Source of the DNA: a virus
Direction: 5' to 3' (one strand)
Virus record (IMG/VR): IMGVR_UViG_3300035670_000055
Location: 1-64,000 of that record
DNA length: 64,000 nucleotides
Shown here piece after piece: positions 2 to 52,449 of this stretch. The notes beneath the pieces are model-generated. The model searched no databases and was not told the origin of the DNA. It was given only the letters and a program-made list of their open reading frames with translations. Each line of letters opens with the position of its first letter. Within the stretch, counting starts at the first letter, position 1. Made by a program: the position numbers and the translations under genes.

Positions 2-223
2 GCTGATGGAACTGTATACGATACTTATTATATTAAATTTAATAATGTAGATAAATCAAGTGATACTTGGGGTGACTATGTAAAACAAGATTCTATGGTA
101 ATTATTGCTGTACCAATAGGTAGTGCTGCTTCTACAGCAATTCAAACTGTTCTTGTTGCTGGATTAGGAGCTGTTACATCTTCTAATGTTGTTCCAACTA
201 CCACTACTACAACAACAGTGTAA
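2..223 (+). CDS. Virion protein, C-terminal part (cut by window edge)
   Basis: An open frame enters from the left edge and stops with TAA at 221-223, leaving about 73 residues. They include a stretch with Asp-Thr-Trp-Gly followed by Val-Ile-Ile-Ala-Val-Pro and an Ala/Ser/Gly-rich segment. The protein ends in seven threonines plus a valine. The same kind of poly-Thr ending recurs in the 45-aa protein at 47.2 kb. It lies just upstream of small virion-type genes and is closed by a strong terminator, so a capsid or capsid-associated role is inferred. The family cannot be named from the C-terminus alone. Confidence 0.7.
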   Translation, partial: ADGTVYDTYYIKFNNVDKSSDTWGDYVKQDSMVIIAVPIGSAASTAIQTVLVAGLGAVTSSNVVPTTTTTTTV

Positions 224-2322: not shown

Positions 2323-2556
2323 ATGTATTTAGTAGAAGAATATCCAAAAGGAAACCCTTTTGAAAACTCAAAATGTAAAAATTGTAGTGATCCAAGATTA
2401 GATACCTCATACAGTTATTATGAAGGTCCTAATCTTCCTGGTACAGGTATAAAAACTTGTGATTCTCTTACATTAGTTATACAGAAAATAGATAATGAGA
2501 TATTAAAAATAAAACAAGATCTTTTAGAAATTAAACAACAAATAAACCAATTATGA
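2323..2556 (+). CDS. Short fibre-anchor protein with coiled coil, 77 aa
   Basis: The central part carries the anchor motif seen in the neighbouring fibre (YYEGPNLPGTGIKTCDSL then VIQKID). A Lys/Ile/Gln heptad-like coiled coil runs from about residue 53 to the end. It looks like the base of a fibre without a tip. It could fill attachment sites alone, trimerise with another fibre, or be the remnant of a longer fibre. The stop TGA overlaps the next ATG (ATGA at 2553-2556), so translation of the two genes is coupled. Confidence 0.65.
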   Translation: MYLVEEYPKGNPFENSKCKNCSDPRLDTSYSYYEGPNLPGTGIKTCDSLTLVIQKIDNEILKIKQDLLEIKQQINQL

Positions 2557-3008
2557 CAGTATTAATAACATTAACAACAGTAGGAGCAGATTGCTCATTA
2601 TTTGATATATATTCTAATATAGATGGATTTATTTCTGCATTTGAGACAGATGTTCCAAAATCTAGTTTATCTGCAGGGTTTAGTTCTGCAAATGTACCAG
2701 ATGGCACAACAATCATTAGAGTGAAAGCAAAAGGGGTCTGTACAAATTATATAGATATAACCCTATCTACTTCTACAACAACAACCACTACTACACTTCC
2801 TGCAACAAGTTTCTTTTGCTTTGAAGGTGAATGGAGTGAAGTTGACACAACCCATGATTGTCCTTCATTATGTGGACAGGTTACTTACATAGATGCTTTT
2901 GGAAACACACAAACAGAGACAGGAATAACTTCTGAAATGGGAGTTATATCAATAGAAGCACAATCAATAATTAGCACAATAGGCGTTAATGCTGTAACAT
3001 GTCCTTAA
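2553..3008 (+). CDS. Virion protein with small beta domain and poly-Thr linker, 151 aa
   Basis: Residues 1-75 form a compact beta-type domain (TTVGADCSLFDIYSNIDGF, then VPDGTTIIRVKAKGVCTNY). A related module opens the protein at 12039. A linker of about ten Thr/Ser residues follows (near residues 77-86), then a second domain with several cysteines. The two-domain layout with a threonine linker resembles the C-terminus of the 1803-aa tail protein. It is the last gene before the terminator at 3079. Exact position in the virion is unknown. Confidence 0.65.
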   Translation: MTVLITLTTVGADCSLFDIYSNIDGFISAFETDVPKSSLSAGFSSANVPDGTTIIRVKAKGVCTNYIDITLSTSTTTTTTTLPATSFFCFEGEWSEVDTTHDCPSLCGQVTYIDAFGNTQTETGITSEMGVISIEAQSIISTIGVNAVTCP

Positions 3009-6616: not shown

Positions 6617-9600
6617 ATGGCAGAACAAGATTCACAAAATAATATTACTCTCAATTATAATTTTGCTAATGGTGGATTAAATTTAGATCAAACTCCTAAT
6701 CAAATTCAGAAAGGGGTATTGACTTATGCTCTTAATGCAACTGTAGAGAGTTTTGATTATAATTCAATAAATTATCAAAATGAACAAGGAAATGATTTTT
6801 GTTTAAATTTTCCAGAAGGATATGTTTTAATTGGTAAATATTTTATTTCAGAACAAAACAAGCATGTATTTATGTTGGTAAATCCAGATAGCCAAAATTC
6901 TGAAATAGGCTATATGGAAAGCAACAACTGTAAATACAACACTATAGTAAATGCAAAGTGTTTAAACTTTGATATAAACTATCCTATACATAAAATTGTA
7001 CATAAAATTAGCAAGGAAGGGACAGAAATATATTGGACAGATAGTAAGAATTCTAGAAGATATTTAAATATTGATGCTTTTCCTAAAAAAATAAAAGAAG
7101 GTTCTTCTCTATGTAACCCAGAGTATACAGAAGAGTTAGATTGTAATAAGATAAAAGTACAACCAGATTTTAAAATTCCCACCTTAGAAATAAAAGAAAT
7201 AATAGGTGGAGGAAATATTATATCAGGAACATATCAGTTTGCTATACAATATTGCGATAGTATAGGAAGTCCATATACATCATATTATTCTATTACTAAT
7301 CCTACACCTATAGCTGATCCTACAATCACTACACAAAATTTTAACTATTCTGTAGGTAAATCAATTGTTGTAGAAGTAGATAATTTAGATACTTCTGGAC
7401 AAGCACAATATTTTAATTTAGCTGTAATAAAAACAATTAATGCTATCTCTTCTGTAGAATTAGTAGGAACATACTATATAGATAATATAAATAAAAAAAT
7501 TACATACACAGGACAACAAGTAGATAATATAAGATTAACTATAAATGATATTTTTGAGAAGTTTCCTCTTTATGATGTTGCTGATGATGTGACTGCTGCT
7601 CAAGATGTTTTAATTTGGAAAGGACTTACTTCTATAGACAGAATGAATTATCAATCTATAGCTAATAAAATTAAATTACAATGGGAGTCTTGGAGGATTC
7701 CTGCTACAGAAAATTATTCTGATGAATATAATGCTACAAATTTAAGAGGGTATTTACGAGATGAAGTATATCCTTTTGAAATAACTTTTTTATTAAAAAA
7801 TGGAAAACAAACCGATTCTTTTCACATACCAGGAAGAAAACTAACTCCTTCTGAAGAACTTCTTCCTAGTATAAATATAGACAATGAGGATAGCATAATC
7901 AATACATCCTCTAGCCCTTATTGGGAAACATACAATACAGCAACCATCATTAGTACCCATCCTAACTATCAACCAACAGAAGATTATAAAGGTCCCTATC
8001 AGTATGGAGAATTTGCATATTGGGAATCTTCAGAAACTTATCCTTGTAATTCTGAAGTTTGGGGAGATTTAGCAGGGAAACCCATAAGACATCATAAATT
8101 TCCAGATGTAAATATTAGTCCTATATTTGAATCTAAAACATTCATAGTTTCATCATCTATTCAAATGGGAAATTGCGCTGTATTTCCAATTGGTGTAAAA
8201 ATAGATAATTCTCAAATTGAAACATTAATAAATACTAGCAATCTTACTACTGAACAGAAAGCAGATATAGTTGGCTGGAAAATAGTAAGAGGAGATAGAG
8301 GAACAAACAAATCTATTGTAGCAAAAGGCATTTTAAGAAACGTAAACTCTTATGAAAGAGCAGGACAAACATATTTATATCCAAACTATCCATACAACGA
8401 TTTATCAGAAGATCCATTTTTAAACAGTAATAATAATGCATTTTCTGATATATGCGAAGAATTTAATATTAATGTAACACAATTAGATAATGAAGGAAAA
8501 GCAATCATCCGATATAATGATTGTAATACAAATAAAGAAACAACAACAACCTTAACATCTTTAGGTGATGTTAAATTTTGTTCTATTGGAAAACCAACAA
8601 TAGATTCTCCTGCAAAAGCAGAAATTGGAACAACTAGTTATGAGGTATGGAGAGTTTCTGTTGGAGACCAAGGATGTGCTGTTGGATGGGTAGATCCTAT
8701 AAATGGATATACAAGAGAGTGGCTAACAGGAGTGTGGCTTGGTTCTGGAGAAAGTAAAGTTATACACGTAGTAATTGGTTCTGGAGAACCTGATAGAGTT
8801 GATGGTAGAGGTAGATTATATAAAGAAAAATTAGAAACTGTTTATGGAAGTGGAAATTGTTCTATTAGTGCTTCTCAAGGAACTTCTAATATTGAACAAC
8901 TTTCTCATAGACAAGTATTTAATTCTCCAGAAACTTCTTTTGGACAACCATTTTTAGGAAATGTATTAAAACTTGAAAGTGTAATTTTTGGAGGAGGAAA
9001 GGCACATTTTGTAGAGGTAAAAAATAATGCAAAATATAAATTATTAACACAAGAAATTCAAATTGATGCTTTATTAAGTGCTAATGAATTAGGACATATT
9101 ACAAATCCTTTTGATGCTTCTGCATTCTTTGCTGCATATCAAGGTTATATAGAAATTTATTTACGTTCTATTAGTAGAAAGAATTTTGCATATTCTTATA
9201 ACTCAATTGCGGAATACAATTATTCAAAACCTATTCCTAATGGTGTAGGAGTAAAACAAAGATTACTTGATATAAAAAGATATATAATTCCTGGTGTACA
9301 ATCTATTGGGGATGATTATAACATCAATAATTACCAAAGGGAAACATCTGTATTTTTAAAAACAGATGTTACAAAAGATCCTTTACCATTACCAAATAAA
9401 ACAAACTCAATAATAAATGCTGTAACAGGAAAAAGTATTATTGAAGATAAATCTAGACATACAATTTCTGAGTTAGGCATTTGTTCTACTCCAGATATAG
9501 AAAAAGATATTACAACTCTTTCCTACTATGCATCAATTAAAAATATTTATTCAGGACAGTGGGGACAAATGTACTCATATGATACTATTGATACTGGCTA

Positions 9601-12028
9601 TCAAAAAATTATAGGAATAGATAACTCTGTAGATACCGTCTTTGGAGGAGATACATTCATTAGTAGATTTACTTTTAAAACAAAACTTCCTTTTTTCTTA
9701 GACAATAGGGTAGGAGCATCTGACGATTCTGATATTTATTATGATGAAATAGGAAACGTAGCTTATCCAAAATATTGGCATTCAGCAAGATCTGTTACAA
9801 AAAGTTACTTTTTGTCTAAAACAAAGGTACTTCCAAATATAATTTCTTATAAGGCGCATAACTTTGATTGCCCAAATAATCAAGGTACAGAGTCCTCTGG
9901 GTCAGTTGAAGGAACATTAACTGGTAATCCTAATAGAATGTATTATGATGGATATTTTTATTTATTTGCCTACGGTATTCCTAGTTTCTATTGTGAAAGT
10001 TCTTATAATGTAGATCTAAGACAGGCTTTTAACAGTAAAGAAGGTGACTTTTATCCTCATGTTAGTAAAGGAATTCCTGATGATTGGTTACAAGAAACAA
10101 ATGTTACAATAAATCAAGATAATACCTATTATTATAACACGACTTATTCTAAACAAAATAAAGAGAATACATTTACACATCTTCCTGTAGATTGGGAATC
10201 TGAAAGTTATACTAATTATCCATTTAGAGCAATTTATTCTGATTCTCAAAATACAAGTGCTGATGCAATCACTAATAATTGGTTAACTTATAGAGCATTA
10301 TCTTATTATGATTTTCCAAAAAGTTATGGAAAACTAATAAGTTTAGATGGTATACAGAATAGAGCAATTCTTGCTAGATTTGAAAACAAGAGCTTGTTAT
10401 ATAATAACTTATTAACTATTGATACAAGCAATCCACAATCTGCATATGTAGGAAATCCTAATATGTTTAGTGCTCCTCCGATAGACTTTGCAGAAACAGA
10501 TTTAGGTTATGTAGGTTCACAACATAAATTTCTATTAAAAATACCAGAAGGACAAGTAACAATAGATGCAAAAAGAGGACAAGTATTTATTATATCTGGA
10601 ACTTCTGTAACAGATATATCTGGATTTGGGTCTGGAATGAATAGATTCTTAACAGACAATTTAGATTTTGAAATATTAAAATATTTTCCAGATATAAATA
10701 TAGATAACCACTTTAAAGATTTTGGACTACATGGTGTATATGACTCTAAATTTGATAGAATAATAATAACAAAATTAGACTATATTCCATTAAGTAATGA
10801 GATTAAGTATAATAATAATAAAAAATATTTTTATATAAATGAAAATGTAGGAAATATTACTGTAGAAAAAATAATAGATGTAAAAAATAATTCATACTTT
10901 TGTAATAGGTCATGGACATTATCTTATTCAATAAATTTAAGAAAATGGATTTCTTTTCACAGTTATATTCCTAATTTTTATATAGCAGAGAACAATTTCT
11001 TTTACTCTGGAATAAATGGAGAATCAAGTGATTTTGAAGCCATTGCTGGAGAGGTAATTCCTATACCAACTACTACAACTACAACTACTAATTTTATTCC
11101 TCCATTTACAACCACAACAACTACAACTAGAGCATTAGATTGTAGATTAGAAGGAGAAGTAAGAATTACAGATTGTGAATTTAACGGAACAGCAATTATT
11201 ACTGTACCTCCAGATGTTCCTACTTGTCAAAGACCAGAAGGATTAGTTTATTCTTATTTTGTTACAGGATATACAACAACAGATCCTGTTACAGATGTAA
11301 CTTCTACAGGAAGTTCAATAGATGCTAGTAATGCTGCTGAATATTTAAACTCTCTTTCTGAAGGTACTACAGGAGTTAGTACTAAATTATTATTAGTAAC
11401 AATAGAAGGACTTAATGTAGGAGATAGTGTTTATTTATATAATGGTTCTGAAGACTGTACAACTATTCCTGACGGATGGTATTTTACAGAAGAAACAGCA
11501 TATAATCAGTACGTATTTAGAGTGGTGTCTGGAAGAATAACAGAAATATATAATTATATTCCTGTCACTACTACAACAACTACAACTATACCTATTACAA
11601 CTACAACTACAACAATAGTGTTAGATTGTACAATTGAAGGAACAGGAGTTATAATTACACCATCTACAACCACTACCACTACTACTACTACTATTGGAGA
11701 TAATTTATTATTTAAATTAATAAATCCGTTAAATAATCCTGCAGATGGTTACATAAGTAAAAATGATTATGAAGGAGGTCCTTATCTTACAATAAATACA
11801 TCAGGTATGTTAAATGGCGTTCTTAATACTGGGGATACATTTGCTGCAGTATTTAAAAATAATTCAACAACAGAAATTAGACAAGTTAGATATTTATATG
11901 AATCTTCAATTAGAGGAGTATTAAATGATACAACTTCATATGTAAATGTGAACGTTGGTGTAACTACTACAACTTTTACAAAAATAGATGGAGAAACTAT
12001 AACAATAACTTTAGAAGTTTTAAATTAA
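6617..12028 (+). CDS. Giant tail-nozzle (muzzle-like) protein with poly-Thr-linked C-terminal domains, 1803 aa
   Basis: The N-terminus (NYNFANGGLNLDQTPNQI) and the long beta-rich body fit the P22 gp10/T7 gp12-type nozzle proteins, called muzzle in crAss001. These close the short tail and hold the cargo. After residue about 1480 the character changes: small domains are strung on threonine linkers (residues 1485-1491, 1498-1504, 1651-1657, about 1661-1666 and about 1684-1692). Two of the linkers are followed by the repeated phrase LDC(R/T)(L/I)EG. The linked modules are probably exposed and may bind cell-surface glycans. It follows the neck genes and precedes a second tail protein. The nozzle identity is inferred from size, position and fold character. 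Confidence 0.7.
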   Translation: MAEQDSQNNITLNYNFANGGLNLDQTPNQIQKGVLTYALNATVESFDYNSINYQNEQGNDFCLNFPEGYVLIGKYFISEQNKHVFMLVNPDSQNSEIGYMESNNCKYNTIVNAKCLNFDINYPIHKIVHKISKEGTEIYWTDSKNSRRYLNIDAFPKKIKEGSSLCNPEYTEELDCNKIKVQPDFKIPTLEIKEIIGGGNIISGTYQFAIQYCDSIGSPYTSYYSITNPTPIADPTITTQNFNYSVGKSIVVEVDNLDTSGQAQYFNLAVIKTINAISSVELVGTYYIDNINKKITYTGQQVDNIRLTINDIFEKFPLYDVADDVTAAQDVLIWKGLTSIDRMNYQSIANKIKLQWESWRIPATENYSDEYNATNLRGYLRDEVYPFEITFLLKNGKQTDSFHIPGRKLTPSEELLPSINIDNEDSIINTSSSPYWETYNTATIISTHPNYQPTEDYKGPYQYGEFAYWESSETYPCNSEVWGDLAGKPIRHHKFPDVNISPIFESKTFIVSSSIQMGNCAVFPIGVKIDNSQIETLINTSNLTTEQKADIVGWKIVRGDRGTNKSIVAKGILRNVNSYERAGQTYLYPNYPYNDLSEDPFLNSNNNAFSDICEEFNINVTQLDNEGKAIIRYNDCNTNKETTTTLTSLGDVKFCSIGKPTIDSPAKAEIGTTSYEVWRVSVGDQGCAVGWVDPINGYTREWLTGVWLGSGESKVIHVVIGSGEPDRVDGRGRLYKEKLETVYGSGNCSISASQGTSNIEQLSHRQVFNSPETSFGQPFLGNVLKLESVIFGGGKAHFVEVKNNAKYKLLTQEIQIDALLSANELGHITNPFDASAFFAAYQGYIEIYLRSISRKNFAYSYNSIAEYNYSKPIPNGVGVKQRLLDIKRYIIPGVQSIGDDYNINNYQRETSVFLKTDVTKDPLPLPNKTNSIINAVTGKSIIEDKSRHTISELGICSTPDIEKDITTLSYYASIKNIYSGQWGQMYSYDTIDTGYQKIIGIDNSVDTVFGGDTFISRFTFKTKLPFFLDNRVGASDDSDIYYDEIGNVAYPKYWHSARSVTKSYFLSKTKVLPNIISYKAHNFDCPNNQGTESSGSVEGTLTGNPNRMYYDGYFYLFAYGIPSFYCESSYNVDLRQAFNSKEGDFYPHVSKGIPDDWLQETNVTINQDNTYYYNTTYSKQNKENTFTHLPVDWESESYTNYPFRAIYSDSQNTSADAITNNWLTYRALSYYDFPKSYGKLISLDGIQNRAILARFENKSLLYNNLLTIDTSNPQSAYVGNPNMFSAPPIDFAETDLGYVGSQHKFLLKIPEGQVTIDAKRGQVFIISGTSVTDISGFGSGMNRFLTDNLDFEILKYFPDINIDNHFKDFGLHGVYDSKFDRIIITKLDYIPLSNEIKYNNNKKYFYINENVGNITVEKIIDVKNNSYFCNRSWTLSYSINLRKWISFHSYIPNFYIAENNFFYSGINGESSDFEAIAGEVIPIPTTTTTTTNFIPPFTTTTTTTRALDCRLEGEVRITDCEFNGTAIITVPPDVPTCQRPEGLVYSYFVTGYTTTDPVTDVTSTGSSIDASNAAEYLNSLSEGTTGVSTKLLLVTIEGLNVGDSVYLYNGSEDCTTIPDGWYFTEETAYNQYVFRVVSGRITEIYNYIPVTTTTTTTIPITTTTTTIVLDCTIEGTGVIITPSTTTTTTTTTIGDNLLFKLINPLNNPADGYISKNDYEGGPYLTINTSGMLNGVLNTGDTFAAVFKNNSTTEIRQVRYLYESSIRGVLNDTTSYVNVNVGVTTTTFTKIDGETITITLEVLN
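11069..11692 (+). repeat. Threonine-codon tracts in the tail-nozzle gene
   Basis: Runs of six to nine Thr codons begin at 11069, 11108, 11567, about 11597 and 11666. ACA, ACT and ACC are mixed irregularly, so selection seems to act on the amino-acid run rather than on a perfect trinucleotide repeat. Identical short stretches could still allow slippage or recombination that changes the number of linked domains. Confidence 0.85.
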
Positions 12029-12038
12029 TATAATTAAA

Positions 12039-12902
12039 ATGTCAAAAACTGTAATAGTAAAATTAACAAAATCTGGTGCTAATATAGGTCCATTTAAAAT
12101 TAGTGATGAGTATGGAACTATATTAGAACAAGATATTTCAAAAGATAGACTTATTAATGGTATAGGATATACTGTTAATGATGATGTATCTGTAATTAGC
12201 CTTGAGTCTACAGGAGATATTAAACTGATAAAAACAATTCCTGTTGGTGAAATTAGTTCTTTGGATTTAATAAATAATTACACAGAAATATCAACTGGTC
12301 AAGTCTGGAAACATTTATTAAATACAACAAAGTATAATAATTATTATGGAAAAATACATCCTTACATAGTTGAATATCCATTTATATATCAGTATCAGGA
12401 TGAAATACTACAAAATGTACAAGACTATAGTAAAGTGTATAAACATATAAAAGAACCATTTAATTCGTTTACTGACTTTGAAAAAGTAGAAGTAAATAAT
12501 GAATGGTTTAATAAAGCAATTCTTTATAATGGACAACAAAGTTCTGGAATATTAAATCTTATTCCTAAACCTATAAATAATTTAAAAAAATACGTAAGCT
12601 ATCCAAAATTCAATTTAGATAGTAAGTCTATTCTTTATACTAAAAGTGATAATCTATATCAATATAATACATTCTGGTCTGTAGTAAAAAATACTTCTGA
12701 ACCATTGTTTATTAAGTCATGTGAAAACTTATCTATAGATAAAGAAGTGAATCAAAGTAATATGGATTATAGTAGTAGAAGTTTTAAAAAAGAACCTCTT
12801 AGAGCAAAGTATTTAAAAATAAGACATATAAAAGATGATAGTGATGATACACATATTGTATCTCAATTCATTATAGGAACTACACAAAAATCATATAAGT
12901 AA
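12039..12902 (+). CDS. Tail structural protein with N-terminal beta module, 287 aa
   Basis: The first 85 residues (TKSGANIGPFKISDEYG, then SLESTGDIKLIK) are a small beta module related in pattern to the one opening the protein at 2553. The rest is Tyr/Asn-rich and includes KAILYNGQQSSGILNL and YTKSDNLYQYNTFWSVVK. From memory such phrases occur in crAss-like tail nozzle or tail-hub proteins. The stop overlaps the next start by one base (TAATG). Probably a partner of the 1803-aa protein in the tail. Confidence 0.65.
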   Translation: MSKTVIVKLTKSGANIGPFKISDEYGTILEQDISKDRLINGIGYTVNDDVSVISLESTGDIKLIKTIPVGEISSLDLINNYTEISTGQVWKHLLNTTKYNNYYGKIHPYIVEYPFIYQYQDEILQNVQDYSKVYKHIKEPFNSFTDFEKVEVNNEWFNKAILYNGQQSSGILNLIPKPINNLKKYVSYPKFNLDSKSILYTKSDNLYQYNTFWSVVKNTSEPLFIKSCENLSIDKEVNQSNMDYSSRSFKKEPLRAKYLKIRHIKDDSDDTHIVSQFIIGTTQKSYK

Positions 12903-47165: not shown

Positions 47166-47303
47166 ATGAGTATACCAGCAAGACCTACTGGACAAGATCC
47201 ACAATCACAATTACTATGGCATATATCTAAACAATTAGATACGCTTATTAAAATTGTAAGTAAAAGCCCTTCTACAACTACAACAACTACCACTACAGTA
47301 TAA
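47166..47303 (+). CDS. Microprotein with poly-Thr tail, 45 aa
   Basis: ATG at 47166 follows a candidate promoter; TAA at 47301-47303. The first 34 residues contain an amphipathic helix (QLLWHISKQLDTLIKIVSK). The last ten residues are Ser, eight Thr and Val, the same ending as the protein cut by the left window edge. Its own promoter and the strict threonine tail argue that it is a real gene. It may be a small virion or fibre-associated peptide. Confidence 0.65.
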   Translation: MSIPARPTGQDPQSQLLWHISKQLDTLIKIVSKSPSTTTTTTTTV

Positions 47304-47390: not shown

Positions 47391-47933
47391 ATGAAAAAAG
47401 AAATTTGGAAACCAGTAAAAAATTATGAATCTTATTATGAAGTTAGTAATGAAGGAAATATCAGATCAATTGAAAGAATTGTTGAACTCCCAATACATCA
47501 ATATCTTAAAAAGCAAAAAATGATAAAACAATTTAAAGATCGTCGTGGGTATTTTCATGTAAAGTTGTATAATGGACTTGGAGAATGTAAATCATTAACA
47601 ACTCATAGAATAGTTGCTTTAACTTTCATAGACAATCCAGAAGGTTTAATAGAAGTTAATCATATTGATCATAATAAGCATAATAATCATGTTGATAATC
47701 TTGAATGGATTACTAGGAGTGATAATATAAAACATTCATATATTCATAGAGATCCTAAAACTTATAAAGGCAGTGGGAATAAAAATGCTAAGTTAACAGA
47801 AGAGCAAGTTAAAAATATTAGAAAAGAATATAAAAATAATAAAATTACATATAAAGAACTTGCTTATAAAAATAATGTTGGAGTAACATTAATAGGATAT
47901 ATTGTTAATAATAAAATATGGAAACATGTCTAA
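47391..47933 (+). CDS. HNH homing endonuclease (NUMOD4-HNH), 180 aa
   Basis: Residues 4-27 are the NUMOD4 DNA-binding motif (IWKPVKNYESYYEVSNEGNI). The HNH core follows: TTHRIVALTFI, VNH91IDHNKHNNHVDNLEW. The last 45 residues (KLTEEQVKNIRKEY to NNKIWKHV) are an HTH-type tail like that of the GIY-YIG protein at 27470. Such genes cut intron-less or endonuclease-less relatives to spread by homing. It has a candidate promoter, and its end overlaps the start of the glycosyltransferase by 8 bases. Confidence 0.9.
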   Translation: MKKEIWKPVKNYESYYEVSNEGNIRSIERIVELPIHQYLKKQKMIKQFKDRRGYFHVKLYNGLGECKSLTTHRIVALTFIDNPEGLIEVNHIDHNKHNNHVDNLEWITRSDNIKHSYIHRDPKTYKGSGNKNAKLTEEQVKNIRKEYKNNKITYKELAYKNNVGVTLIGYIVNNKIWKHV

Positions 47934-48942
47934 ACCAATTATAATTACAGCACAGCCCGATGATCAATACTTTATTTGGCAAAATCATTTGTACATTGAA
48001 TCATGTTTAAACCAAGGATTTACTCAAGATCAAATACATATATTATTATACAAACCTAAAAATAGACAATTTAATAATAATTGGAATAAATTAAAAGATA
48101 TATATCCAGATATAAATATATTTTTATACGAAGATAAAGGAGTTCAACAATTCTTGGGAGTTTATATTCCTATACTAAGACCTCATATTCTTTGGCAGCA
48201 TTTTGAAGTTTATCCAGAATTAAAGGATAAAACAATTATTTATACAGATAGTGATATTCTTTGGTTAGATACATTAAATATAAATCATCTCTTATTAGAT
48301 AATATAAACTATGTAAGTGATGCCAGTTCTTATTTAAATTATTCATATTTTGAAAATAAATATAAACAAGTTATTCCTGAGAAATTAGAAGAGGCTAAGT
48401 CGGTAGATTTTCTAAAAGAAGTATGTAATATAGTAGGAATAGATAAAAAAATTGTAATAGATAATAATAATAACACTGGTGGAGTACAATATATTTTAAA
48501 AAATATAGATGTTGATTTTTGGAAAAAAGTTGAAACTGATGTGCTTAAAATAAGATTGTATCTTCAACAAGTAAATAAAATATATTTTAAAAGTGAGAAT
48601 GATGGCATACAATCATGGTGCGCAGATCTTTGGGCAGTACAATTTAATTTATGGTTTAGAAATTTAGAAACTAAAGTGGTAAAAGAATTAGATTTTGCTT
48701 GGGCTACAGAACCTATAGAAAAATTAAATTCTTGTACAATATTACATAATGCTGGAGTTGGAAGTAAATTTATGAATAATATTCCATATTTTTATAAAGG
48801 AGCATATCATACTGGTAATAGTCCTTTTTTAGATGAACATCTAGAAACAGTTATCAACAATGAACAATCTAAAAAACATTGTACATGGTATTATACTAAT
48901 AAATTATTAGAGTTAAAAAATAAATATAATATAAATTATTAA
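47926..48942 (+). CDS. Putative glycosyltransferase (DxD), 338 aa
   Basis: The start MSKPIIITAQ at 47926 is preferred; an upstream in-frame codon lies deep inside the HNH gene. The N-terminus is a Rossmann-like strand. TIIYTD108SD110ILW is a DxD nucleotide-sugar/metal motif of GT-A enzymes. Later blocks (NTGGVQYIL, NDGIQSWCADLWAVQFNLW, LHNAGVG) fit an acceptor domain. It might glycosylate virion proteins, host surface sugars or phage DNA. The poly-Thr tracts of several virion proteins are candidate targets. Family number is uncertain. Confidence 0.7.
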   Translation: MSKPIIITAQPDDQYFIWQNHLYIESCLNQGFTQDQIHILLYKPKNRQFNNNWNKLKDIYPDINIFLYEDKGVQQFLGVYIPILRPHILWQHFEVYPELKDKTIIYTDSDILWLDTLNINHLLLDNINYVSDASSYLNYSYFENKYKQVIPEKLEEAKSVDFLKEVCNIVGIDKKIVIDNNNNTGGVQYILKNIDVDFWKKVETDVLKIRLYLQQVNKIYFKSENDGIQSWCADLWAVQFNLWFRNLETKVVKELDFAWATEPIEKLNSCTILHNAGVGSKFMNNIPYFYKGAYHTGNSPFLDEHLETVINNEQSKKHCTWYYTNKLLELKNKYNINY

Positions 48943-49022: not shown

Positions 49023-49202
49023 ATGAGTAACAAAACATTAAAAGCATTTGTCAGATTAGATGGACAAAATAGAGTGATTGCATCAAGTCTTATTCTTAGA
49101 AAAAATAAACCTAAGGTAGGTAGATGGAGAGAAATTGTAGCAAATGAATGCTGTATAACAAGTACAACAAGTACAACAACTGCCACATCTACAGGTAGAT
49201 AA
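49023..49202 (+). CDS. Small protein with Thr/Ser tail, 59 aa
   Basis: The start ATG at 49023 (MSNKTLKAFVRLDG) is preferred over one 39 bases upstream because the conserved part begins there. Residues 4-43 (KAFVRLDGQNRVIASSLILR, KPKVGRWREI, ECC) match, from memory, a small protein common in Bacteroidetes phages. The last 15 residues are Thr/Ser-rich. It precedes a ferritin-like protein and a fibre. A virion role is likely but unproven. Confidence 0.6.
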   Translation: MSNKTLKAFVRLDGQNRVIASSLILRKNKPKVGRWREIVANECCITSTTSTTTATSTGR

Positions 49203-51058: not shown

Positions 51059-51718
51059 TTATTTTATAAGAAAATTAGAAGTTGATATATTATTACCATG
51101 AATATTCCAGATAATATTATCCTTGTTAGTTGTTGGAAAATGTTTTAGTCCTTTTTTCTCCCAATAAATTCTCCATAACATATCATCATTCCACCCAACT
51201 TCTTCATCAGGAATATTTAAAATACATTCTAATCCTTTTTTATTAAAAGCAAAAGTCATAGGCATGTGATAATTACTGTTATTAGGATTACCTCCTAAAT
51301 TATCATAATTTCTATCTGTAAACATAAATATTCCATTCAGTTGTGTAGAAATTCTAGAAGAAGTGGTAGATATATCTGGATTATTTGTAAATGTTTCTAC
51401 GACATTTTTTACATAATCCTTTTTGTATATATCGTCATCATCCATCTTAATAAATATATCATACTGTTCATAATTTGGTACATTTTTTATAGCAAGTATT
51501 TCATTAAAGTGAATATACTTATTTCCTGATTTTGTTACTATTAATTTATCATCTAATAAATCATCGTATATAGGAGAGAAGTTTTGATCATTCCCTCCAT
51601 CTGATACAATGTTTACACTATGTACAATATTCTGATAAGACTGATTCTTTACATTAAGAATACATTGTCTTAACATATATGGTCTATTGTATGAGCATGT
51701 AAAAATTAAAACTTTCAT
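51059..51718 (-). CDS. Glycosyltransferase family 2-like, 219 aa
   Basis: The start MKVLIFTCSYNRPYML at 51718 is a typical GT-A family 2 opening (strand, then YNRP). FIKMD93DDD96IY supplies the DxD-type metal and nucleotide-sugar site. A later WNDDMLWRIYWEKKG fits the acceptor side. The start overlaps the stop of the GIY-YIG gene by one base (TAATG). It is the last gene of the recA operon. It could modify virion proteins, host surface or phage DNA; the acceptor is unknown. Confidence 0.8.
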   Translation of the reverse strand: MKVLIFTCSYNRPYMLRQCILNVKNQSYQNIVHSVNIVSDGGNDQNFSPIYDDLLDDKLIVTKSGNKYIHFNEILAIKNVPNYEQYDIFIKMDDDDIYKKDYVKNVVETFTNNPDISTTSSRISTQLNGIFMFTDRNYDNLGGNPNNSNYHMPMTFAFNKKGLECILNIPDEEVGWNDDMLWRIYWEKKGLKHFPTTNKDNIIWNIHGNNISTSNFLIK

Positions 51719-52449
51719 TACCAAATATGTGCTACATTACTAAAACATTCTTGATACCCATTAAATTTAATTAAAGGTTTATACTTTTTATCTTTATTCA
51801 TCTTTTTTAGTTTATTTTCTAGATTATATATTTTATTACAACTATCTTCTATAATTTTTATTATAGAATAATTATAAGGCATTTCTTTTTTAGATTTAAA
51901 TCTTTTTTCTATTGTTTGAAAAGTTCTTCCAATTTTATAAAATTCTTCAAAATCATTCCAACATTTTATAATATATATTTTATATGTATGAAAATTTTTT
52001 GATTCTTTAGCAGACTTTTCCCAGTTTTTTTCAGACCACCCTGTTGGATTATTAGAATGTAAAATAGAACTTTTTATATTTTTACATTTGGGACATCCTT
52101 TTTTATTTAAATGATCATTTGCTTCTTGTAAAAAATTACCATGAATTTTACAAGTTATTGTTATTTTATTATGTGCTGTTGTATAGTTAATAAAATCATA
52201 AGTATACTTAAAATTATGTATTAAATTAGCTTTATTAGAATAATATTCATTTTTATTTAGAGCAGTATTTATAGAAGGTATTACACCATTCATTAAATGT
52301 CCTTTTCTTATTTTACATAATCCTAAAGAAGTTTCAACTATAACATATAAATTATTAATTCCTACCTCTTCTAAAATAATAATAGAAGAGGTAGGGAATT
52401 TATTTTTATATTTTGTTATAAAAGAATCTAACATTTTATCACCACACAT
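51718..52449 (-). CDS. GIY-YIG-type endonuclease inserted at the groES 3' end, 243 aa
   Basis: Residues about 80-122 are a Cys/His module (TCKIHGNF, HLNKKGCPKC) of the kind found in phage endonucleases. Residues 157-240 look like a T5orf172/GIY-YIG nuclease: YIIKCW, FYKIG174R, a Glu in NLENKL and GYQECF. The C-terminus is VAHIW, copying the end VAHVW of the upstream GroES-like protein. M1 at 52449 overlaps that gene by 11 bases; M6 at 52434 would not. Probably a mobile gene. Confidence 0.75.
   Translation of the reverse strand: MCGDKMLDSFITKYKNKFPTSSIIILEEVGINNLYVIVETSLGLCKIRKGHLMNGVIPSINTALNKNEYYSNKANLIHNFKYTYDFINYTTAHNKITITCKIHGNFLQEANDHLNKKGCPKCKNIKSSILHSNNPTGWSEKNWEKSAKESKNFHTYKIYIIKCWNDFEEFYKIGRTFQTIEKRFKSKKEMPYNYSIIKIIEDSCNKIYNLENKLKKMNKDKKYKPLIKFNGYQECFSNVAHIW

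Follow-up and report, generated by a model that had tools for sequence, protein, structure and literature searches.

Polythreonine tails of virion proteins are paired with a predicted glycosyltransferase in crAss-like and other phages

Introduction

The gene for a predicted glycosyltransferase of the phrog_4417 family (GT1) and threonine tails on virion proteins come and go together in unrelated phages, so that the particle is probably sugar-coated by its own phage. This pairing of phrog_4417 with poly-Thr tails, described here in a crAss-like phage and in phages of several bacterial hosts, is new. We consider it probable that GT1 O-glycosylates the Thr tails and linkers of virion proteins; glycan extension in the crAss-like clade may be the task of a second enzyme, GT2.

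Virion glycosylation by phage-encoded glycosyltransferases has so far been reported for a few mycobacteriophages, including Che8 (Freeman et al., 2023), as cited in PMC11256854 and PMC12619734; according to the latter, the glycans sit on the C-termini of the capsid and tail-tube subunits. Mycobacteriophages and the present crAss-like phage have a phage-encoded glycosyltransferase in common, and the putative system is seen here as Thr tails and gene linkage. Two differences separate them. The first is the putative acceptor, which here is a run of 6-10 Thr, whereas in Che8 the major capsid protein (MCP) ends in ...VVFNKTGS and the MTP in ...QYSDGS, with no poly-Thr tail. The second is the range of carriers, which here takes in crAss-like phages as well as those that infect Firmicutes and other hosts. 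A literature search for poly-Thr in phages returned no report.

If the proposal is true, it would give a function to a whole uncharacterised enzyme family and would make glycosylated virions predictable from sequence, as a Thr tail together with GT1, both in crAss-like phages, which abound in the environment, and in phages of Lactococcus, Lactobacillus, Enterococcus and Staphylococcus that are in culture. Since some of the cultured phages have the system and comparable ones lack it, the effect of a sugar coat on a phage can be tested directly.

Results and discussion

Source genome and tract-bearing genes

The window analyzed spans the opening 64 kb of a crAss-like phage record 115,492 bases long. 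The record is classed as linear; its first 244 bases recur at the far end with one mismatch, and this overlap makes a complete, circular genome probable. It belongs to the Crassvirales, as it encodes an MCP (PF23898, E 1.5e-30), a portal (phrog_6547, E 1.3e-94) and a muzzle protein (PF25731, E 4.5e-27) of crassvirus type. The genes discussed below are the following.

2..223, + strand: C-terminal part of a 368-aa virion-cluster protein, ending in ...NVVPTTTTTTTV, a Thr tail
2553..3008, + strand: 151-aa protein with an N-terminal domain, an STSTTTTTTT linker and a variable C-terminal domain
6617..12028, + strand: muzzle (tail tip) protein with five poly-Thr linkers (11069-11692) among small domains
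47166..47303, + strand: 45-aa protein ending in STTTTTTTTV; upstream neighbour of GT1 in relatives
47391..47933, + strand: NUMOD4/HNH homing endonuclease (PF07463, PF13392, phrog_59) between the 45-aa gene and GT1
47926..48942, + strand: GT1, phrog_4417, predicted GT-A/GT8-like, with a DxD motif at residues 108-110
49023..49202, + strand: 59-aa protein with the Thr/Ser-rich tail TSTTSTTTATSTGR; downstream neighbour of GT1
51059..51724, - strand: GT2, family-2 glycosyltransferase (PF00535, E 4e-8)

The 368-aa protein spans the contig ends, and its full-length gene is L004 11666-12772. The gene is the third after that of the MCP, which was identified upstream, and by gene order only the protein resembles the crassvirus auxiliary capsid protein gp36. 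Its Thr-rich tail is kept in 75 of 80 orthologs; the AF2 model of a relative of this T-tailed protein was poor (pLDDT 46). In the muzzle protein, the poly-Thr linkers all lie within a C-terminal extension, and nearly all of 80 relatives carry tracts there, often as longer T/S arrays. Relatives of the 59-aa protein end in T7 tails. The N-terminal domain of the 151-aa protein (about 70-72 aa) forms a cluster of 61 unique segments drawn from three gene contexts, and is possibly a particle-anchoring module. In relatives this domain, which lies at 2553-2780 in the window, begins many different Thr-linked genes, and the N-terminal part of the 12039 protein (12039-12230) resembles it by eye.

Threonine tracts are conserved as peptide

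The tracts, all of which fall inside predicted genes, are listed here.

197-217: T7, then V-stop, end of the 368-aa protein
2766-2795: STSTTTTTTT linker, 151-aa protein
11069-11089: T7, muzzle extension
11108-11128: T7, muzzle extension
11567-11587: T7, muzzle extension
11597-11614: T6, muzzle extension
11663-11692: ST9, muzzle extension
47271-47297: ST8, then V-stop, 45-aa protein
49158-49181: TSTTSTTT, 59-aa protein

An initial annotation of this DNA had pointed out recurrent Thr runs, and these exist as described: eight runs of at least six Thr are present in the window against 0.006 expected from per-protein shuffling, and no other amino acid forms a run of six in the window proteins. The positions given there held overall with minor corrections, in that 11069-11692 lies in the muzzle extension, the 45-aa gene is 47166-47303 and the first protein has 368 aa. 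Two placements can be distinguished. The first is the C-terminal tail (368-aa, 45-aa and 59-aa proteins); the second is the inter-domain linker (muzzle extension and 151-aa protein). The domains between tracts are modular, with 15 of 36 clusters found in at least two gene contexts.

Run lengths in relatives show a sharp mode at seven (85 runs of six, 244 of seven and 51 of eight). The 244 T7 tracts are encoded by 215 distinct DNA sequences, the similarity between neighbouring codons in a tract does not exceed that in shuffled tracts, and ACC makes up 18% of the codons in tracts compared with 5% elsewhere. Pro or Ser usually precedes the tract, and I, S, V, A or L follows it. Free codon variation together with the length peak at seven indicates that the peptide is conserved and not the DNA, as the initial annotation had concluded from the mixed codons. 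The tracts might instead act as DNA, either as recombination junctions or as slippage-prone repeats aiding tail-domain swaps, and the shuffling of the inter-tract domains would suit such a role; however, the diversity of the T7 sequences, the shuffle-like adjacent codons, the strict length mode and the terminal position of many tracts make it highly improbable. Relatives including L014, L016 and L024 also have, between T5-T7 blocks, stretches of 20-50 residues in which T and S alternate strictly as (TS)n, a regularity that poly-Thr by itself does not explain.

GT1 is predicted to be a GT-A glycosyltransferase

GT1 matches the phrog_4417 profile with an E of 1.6e-47 (residues 15-334 against 4-287 of 293). 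The family is also called 'prophage pi2 protein 34' and is annotated as of unknown function. No Pfam match was obtained for GT1 up to E 10, or above the cut-off for distant members, and sequence searches of the PDB returned nothing useful. The AF2 model (pLDDT 94.1, pTM 0.90) was matched in structural comparison to glycogenin (Z 14.5, 233 residues, rmsd 3.8), LgtC (Z 14.2) and Streptococcus pneumoniae GlyE (Z 13.6), and UGGT was also matched (Z 13.6-14.5). Glycogenin, LgtC and GlyE, which are GT8-type retaining enzymes, share the predicted GT-A fold and the DxD motif with GT1, whereas identity in the structural alignment is only 8-12%. Residues Y106, D108 and D110 are invariant in 18 diverse members. 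The fold matches of the model and the invariant DxD imply that GT1 is very likely a GT-A glycosyltransferase of GT8 type. The initial annotation's assignment of two glycosyltransferases to this phage is thus borne out, one by the PF00535 match of GT2 and the other by the phrog_4417 match and predicted fold of GT1.

GT1 and tracts are gained and lost together in the crAss-like clade

The initial annotation had proposed a check for co-occurrence of the tracts and the glycosyltransferase genes across relatives, and the outcome was positive: GT1 is present in 23/23 long crAss-like records that bear tracts and cover the GT1 locus, and in 0/4 complete tract-less crAss-like relatives. Among the first 22 long records, 19 carry GT1 and tracts, two carry tracts only and one (G010) carries neither; the two tract-only records (G003 and G016) are 89-90 kb long and end before the GT1 locus. 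Four further long records all carry both, and shorter fragments (G122, G123 and G128-G130) were left out of the count. Three relatives with complete genomes, Cellulophaga phi17:2, Leptolyngbya Lbo-JY46 and csAssE-Sib, lack both GT1 and tracts. No complete crAss-like record has tracts but lacks the gene, although some poly-Thr contigs outside the clade do.

The strongest single observation is the matched loss of tails and enzyme in G010. Its orthologs of the muzzle, 368-aa and 45-aa proteins stop just before the start of the tract, ending in ...NNFFYSGLNGGCDLEAIAASEELT, ...ALGTVTTI and ...QITSKLVP, respectively, and GT1 is cleanly missing between its two conserved neighbours, which are about 27 bases apart.

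The same pairing recurs in unrelated phages

Relatives of GT1 were found in Lactococcus, Lactobacillus, Enterococcus, Staphylococcus, Arcanobacterium and Chryseobacterium phages, and in each of the 14 GT1-bearing phages examined, virion genes or genes next to GT1 encode Thr-rich tails or repeats. GT1-bearing phages with such tails are as follows.

Lactococcus: 1706, CHPC971
Enterococcus: VPE25, 9183, 4995_1
Staphylococcus: DH5, PMBT8
Arcanobacterium: TPWB06
Chryseobacterium: MA9V-3
Lactobacillus: Semele, iLp84
Tybeckvirus: SAC12B, ENFP1

In these unrelated phages the tails are poly-Thr or Thr-Pro and occur on virion genes or genes adjacent to GT1. The tail of phage 9183 is ATTTDPVTTTSTTRQ, SAC12B and ENFP1 have TTVAP/TTVKP repeats, and in 4995_1 the tail-tube tail is degenerate and the capsid tail intact. 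Two further on/off contrasts were observed. In the GT1-bearing Enterococcus prophages L388 and L389, the MCP ends in GTTTTTTKPTTTTTTTQA, with one Thr fewer in L389, and the MTP in SSTTTTTTTQA, whereas prophages L390-L392, with MCPs 83-84% identical, are without GT1 and without an MCP or MTP tail. Likewise, the GT1-bearing Lactobacillus Coetzeevirus R3.3 has T tails on its MCP and MTP, while the Coetzeeviruses Silenus, cIP1, ATCC8014, phiJL-1 and phiLpTT2 (MCP 66-74% identical) have no MCP tail and no GT1 in the region read.

The linkage is also positional: an immediate neighbour with a run of at least five Thr is present at 54 of 64 GT1 loci, compared with 7.6% of the genes in the same loci. 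These counts overstate independence, since members of a group share ancestry; what counts as independent is the three on/off contrasts and roughly eight unrelated phage groups. We judge it likely, with somewhat less assurance than the role of GT1 itself, that phrog_4417 is a widespread family of phage protein O-glycosyltransferases with a portable poly-Thr 'glycotag', repeatedly gained or lost along with the Thr tails of capsid and tail proteins that are not homologous, and that glycan-coated virions are thus common in crAss-like phages and phages of lactic acid bacteria. Phage glycosyltransferases that target DNA or host surface polymers are known, as reviewed in PMC12619734, and GT1 might act in this way with the Thr tails as a separate adaptation. 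With such a target, virion proteins would not be expected to lose their Thr tails in step with the enzyme, and GT1 adjoins capsid, tail or Thr-tail genes across unrelated genomes, which leaves it very unlikely.

Association of GT2 with the tracts is confined to the crAss-like clade

Orthologs of GT2 were near zero with the window's own GT2 as the query, which suggested that this enzyme is irrelevant; the PF00535 profile overturned this. Of 15 near-complete crAss-like genomes with tracts, 14 have a PF00535 gene at a distance of a few kilobases from GT1, in most cases on the other strand; the remaining record stops 2 kb past GT1. None of the four tract-less relatives has a PF00535 gene. GT2 is far more variable than GT1 (median identity 30% versus 57%), and it is absent from 11 GT1-bearing phages of other groups. 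GT1 is thus the general partner of the tracts, whereas GT2, which diverges fast, is found with them in the crAss-like clade alone. The earlier suggestion that the tracts are acceptors and the two phage glycosyltransferases the enzymes is strongly supported for GT1, by co-occurrence and matched gain and loss, but the two are unequal. A constant first sugar added by GT1 and a variable outer sugar added by GT2 is a plausible arrangement. A T5orf172 endonuclease-like gene (51718-52449) directly adjoins GT2.

Proposed mechanism

We propose that GT1 is an initiating O-Thr glycosyltransferase, with the poly-Thr tails and linkers as its acceptor tags. GT1 would move a sugar from a nucleotide sugar to Thr of exposed tails and linkers on the capsid-cluster, muzzle and small proteins, presumably while these are still in the cytoplasm of the host and either not yet assembled or being assembled, and GT2 may then extend or vary the glycan in the crAss-like clade. 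By analogy with GT8 enzymes, the donor may be a UDP-hexose or HexNAc and the linkage alpha. The released virion would be studded with O-glycans, which might protect it from proteases or antibodies or alter its binding, and glycosylated tracts would also form stiff, protease-resistant spacers between small exchangeable domains. Nevertheless, the glycosyltransferase could use another substrate, with the gene and the tails sharing another cause.

Threonine tracts with and without GT1

In a reverse test, 50 viral contigs with an (ACN)8 tract coding for poly-Thr were compared with 50 carrying a (CAN)8 control tract. GT1 was found in 12 of the former and in one of the latter (Fisher p=0.002, phylogeny ignored), and the lone GT1-bearing control contig also has poly-Thr tails. 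In 11 of the 12 GT1-bearing poly-Thr contigs, GT1 directly follows the tract-bearing gene on the same strand. GT1 is missing from the other 38, several of which exceed 50 kb; poly-Thr alone therefore does not prove a GT1 system.

These contigs bear on an alternative in which the tracts are plain unmodified linkers, flexible or extended, that join exchangeable domains while the glycosyltransferases act elsewhere. The small domains that flank the tracts and their reuse across gene contexts fit this account, as do the many poly-Thr contigs without GT1, in which no glycosyltransferase family lies beside the tracts among the families listed. It is nonetheless unlikely, since many tracts stand at the C-terminus, where there is nothing to join, and the joint loss of GT1 and of tails on separate genes in the crAss-like phages, Enterococcus prophages and Coetzeeviruses would be left unexplained. 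Even with glycosylation by GT1 as the preferred reading, part of the tract role may be plain linkage, as tracts also separate shuffled domains.

Other enzymes may stand in for GT1 in some of these phages. Suggestive cases are the long poly-Thr contigs G022 and G053, which lack GT1 and encode two GT4-type and two family-2 glycosyltransferases among 72 proteins, an uncontrolled count. Capsid-region proteins of two long phage contigs without phrog_4417 (L495 8474-11089 and L496 18324-18902) have C-terminal tails of 12-17 Thr, and these contigs encode GT4-type and family-2 glycosyltransferases and a sulfotransferase.
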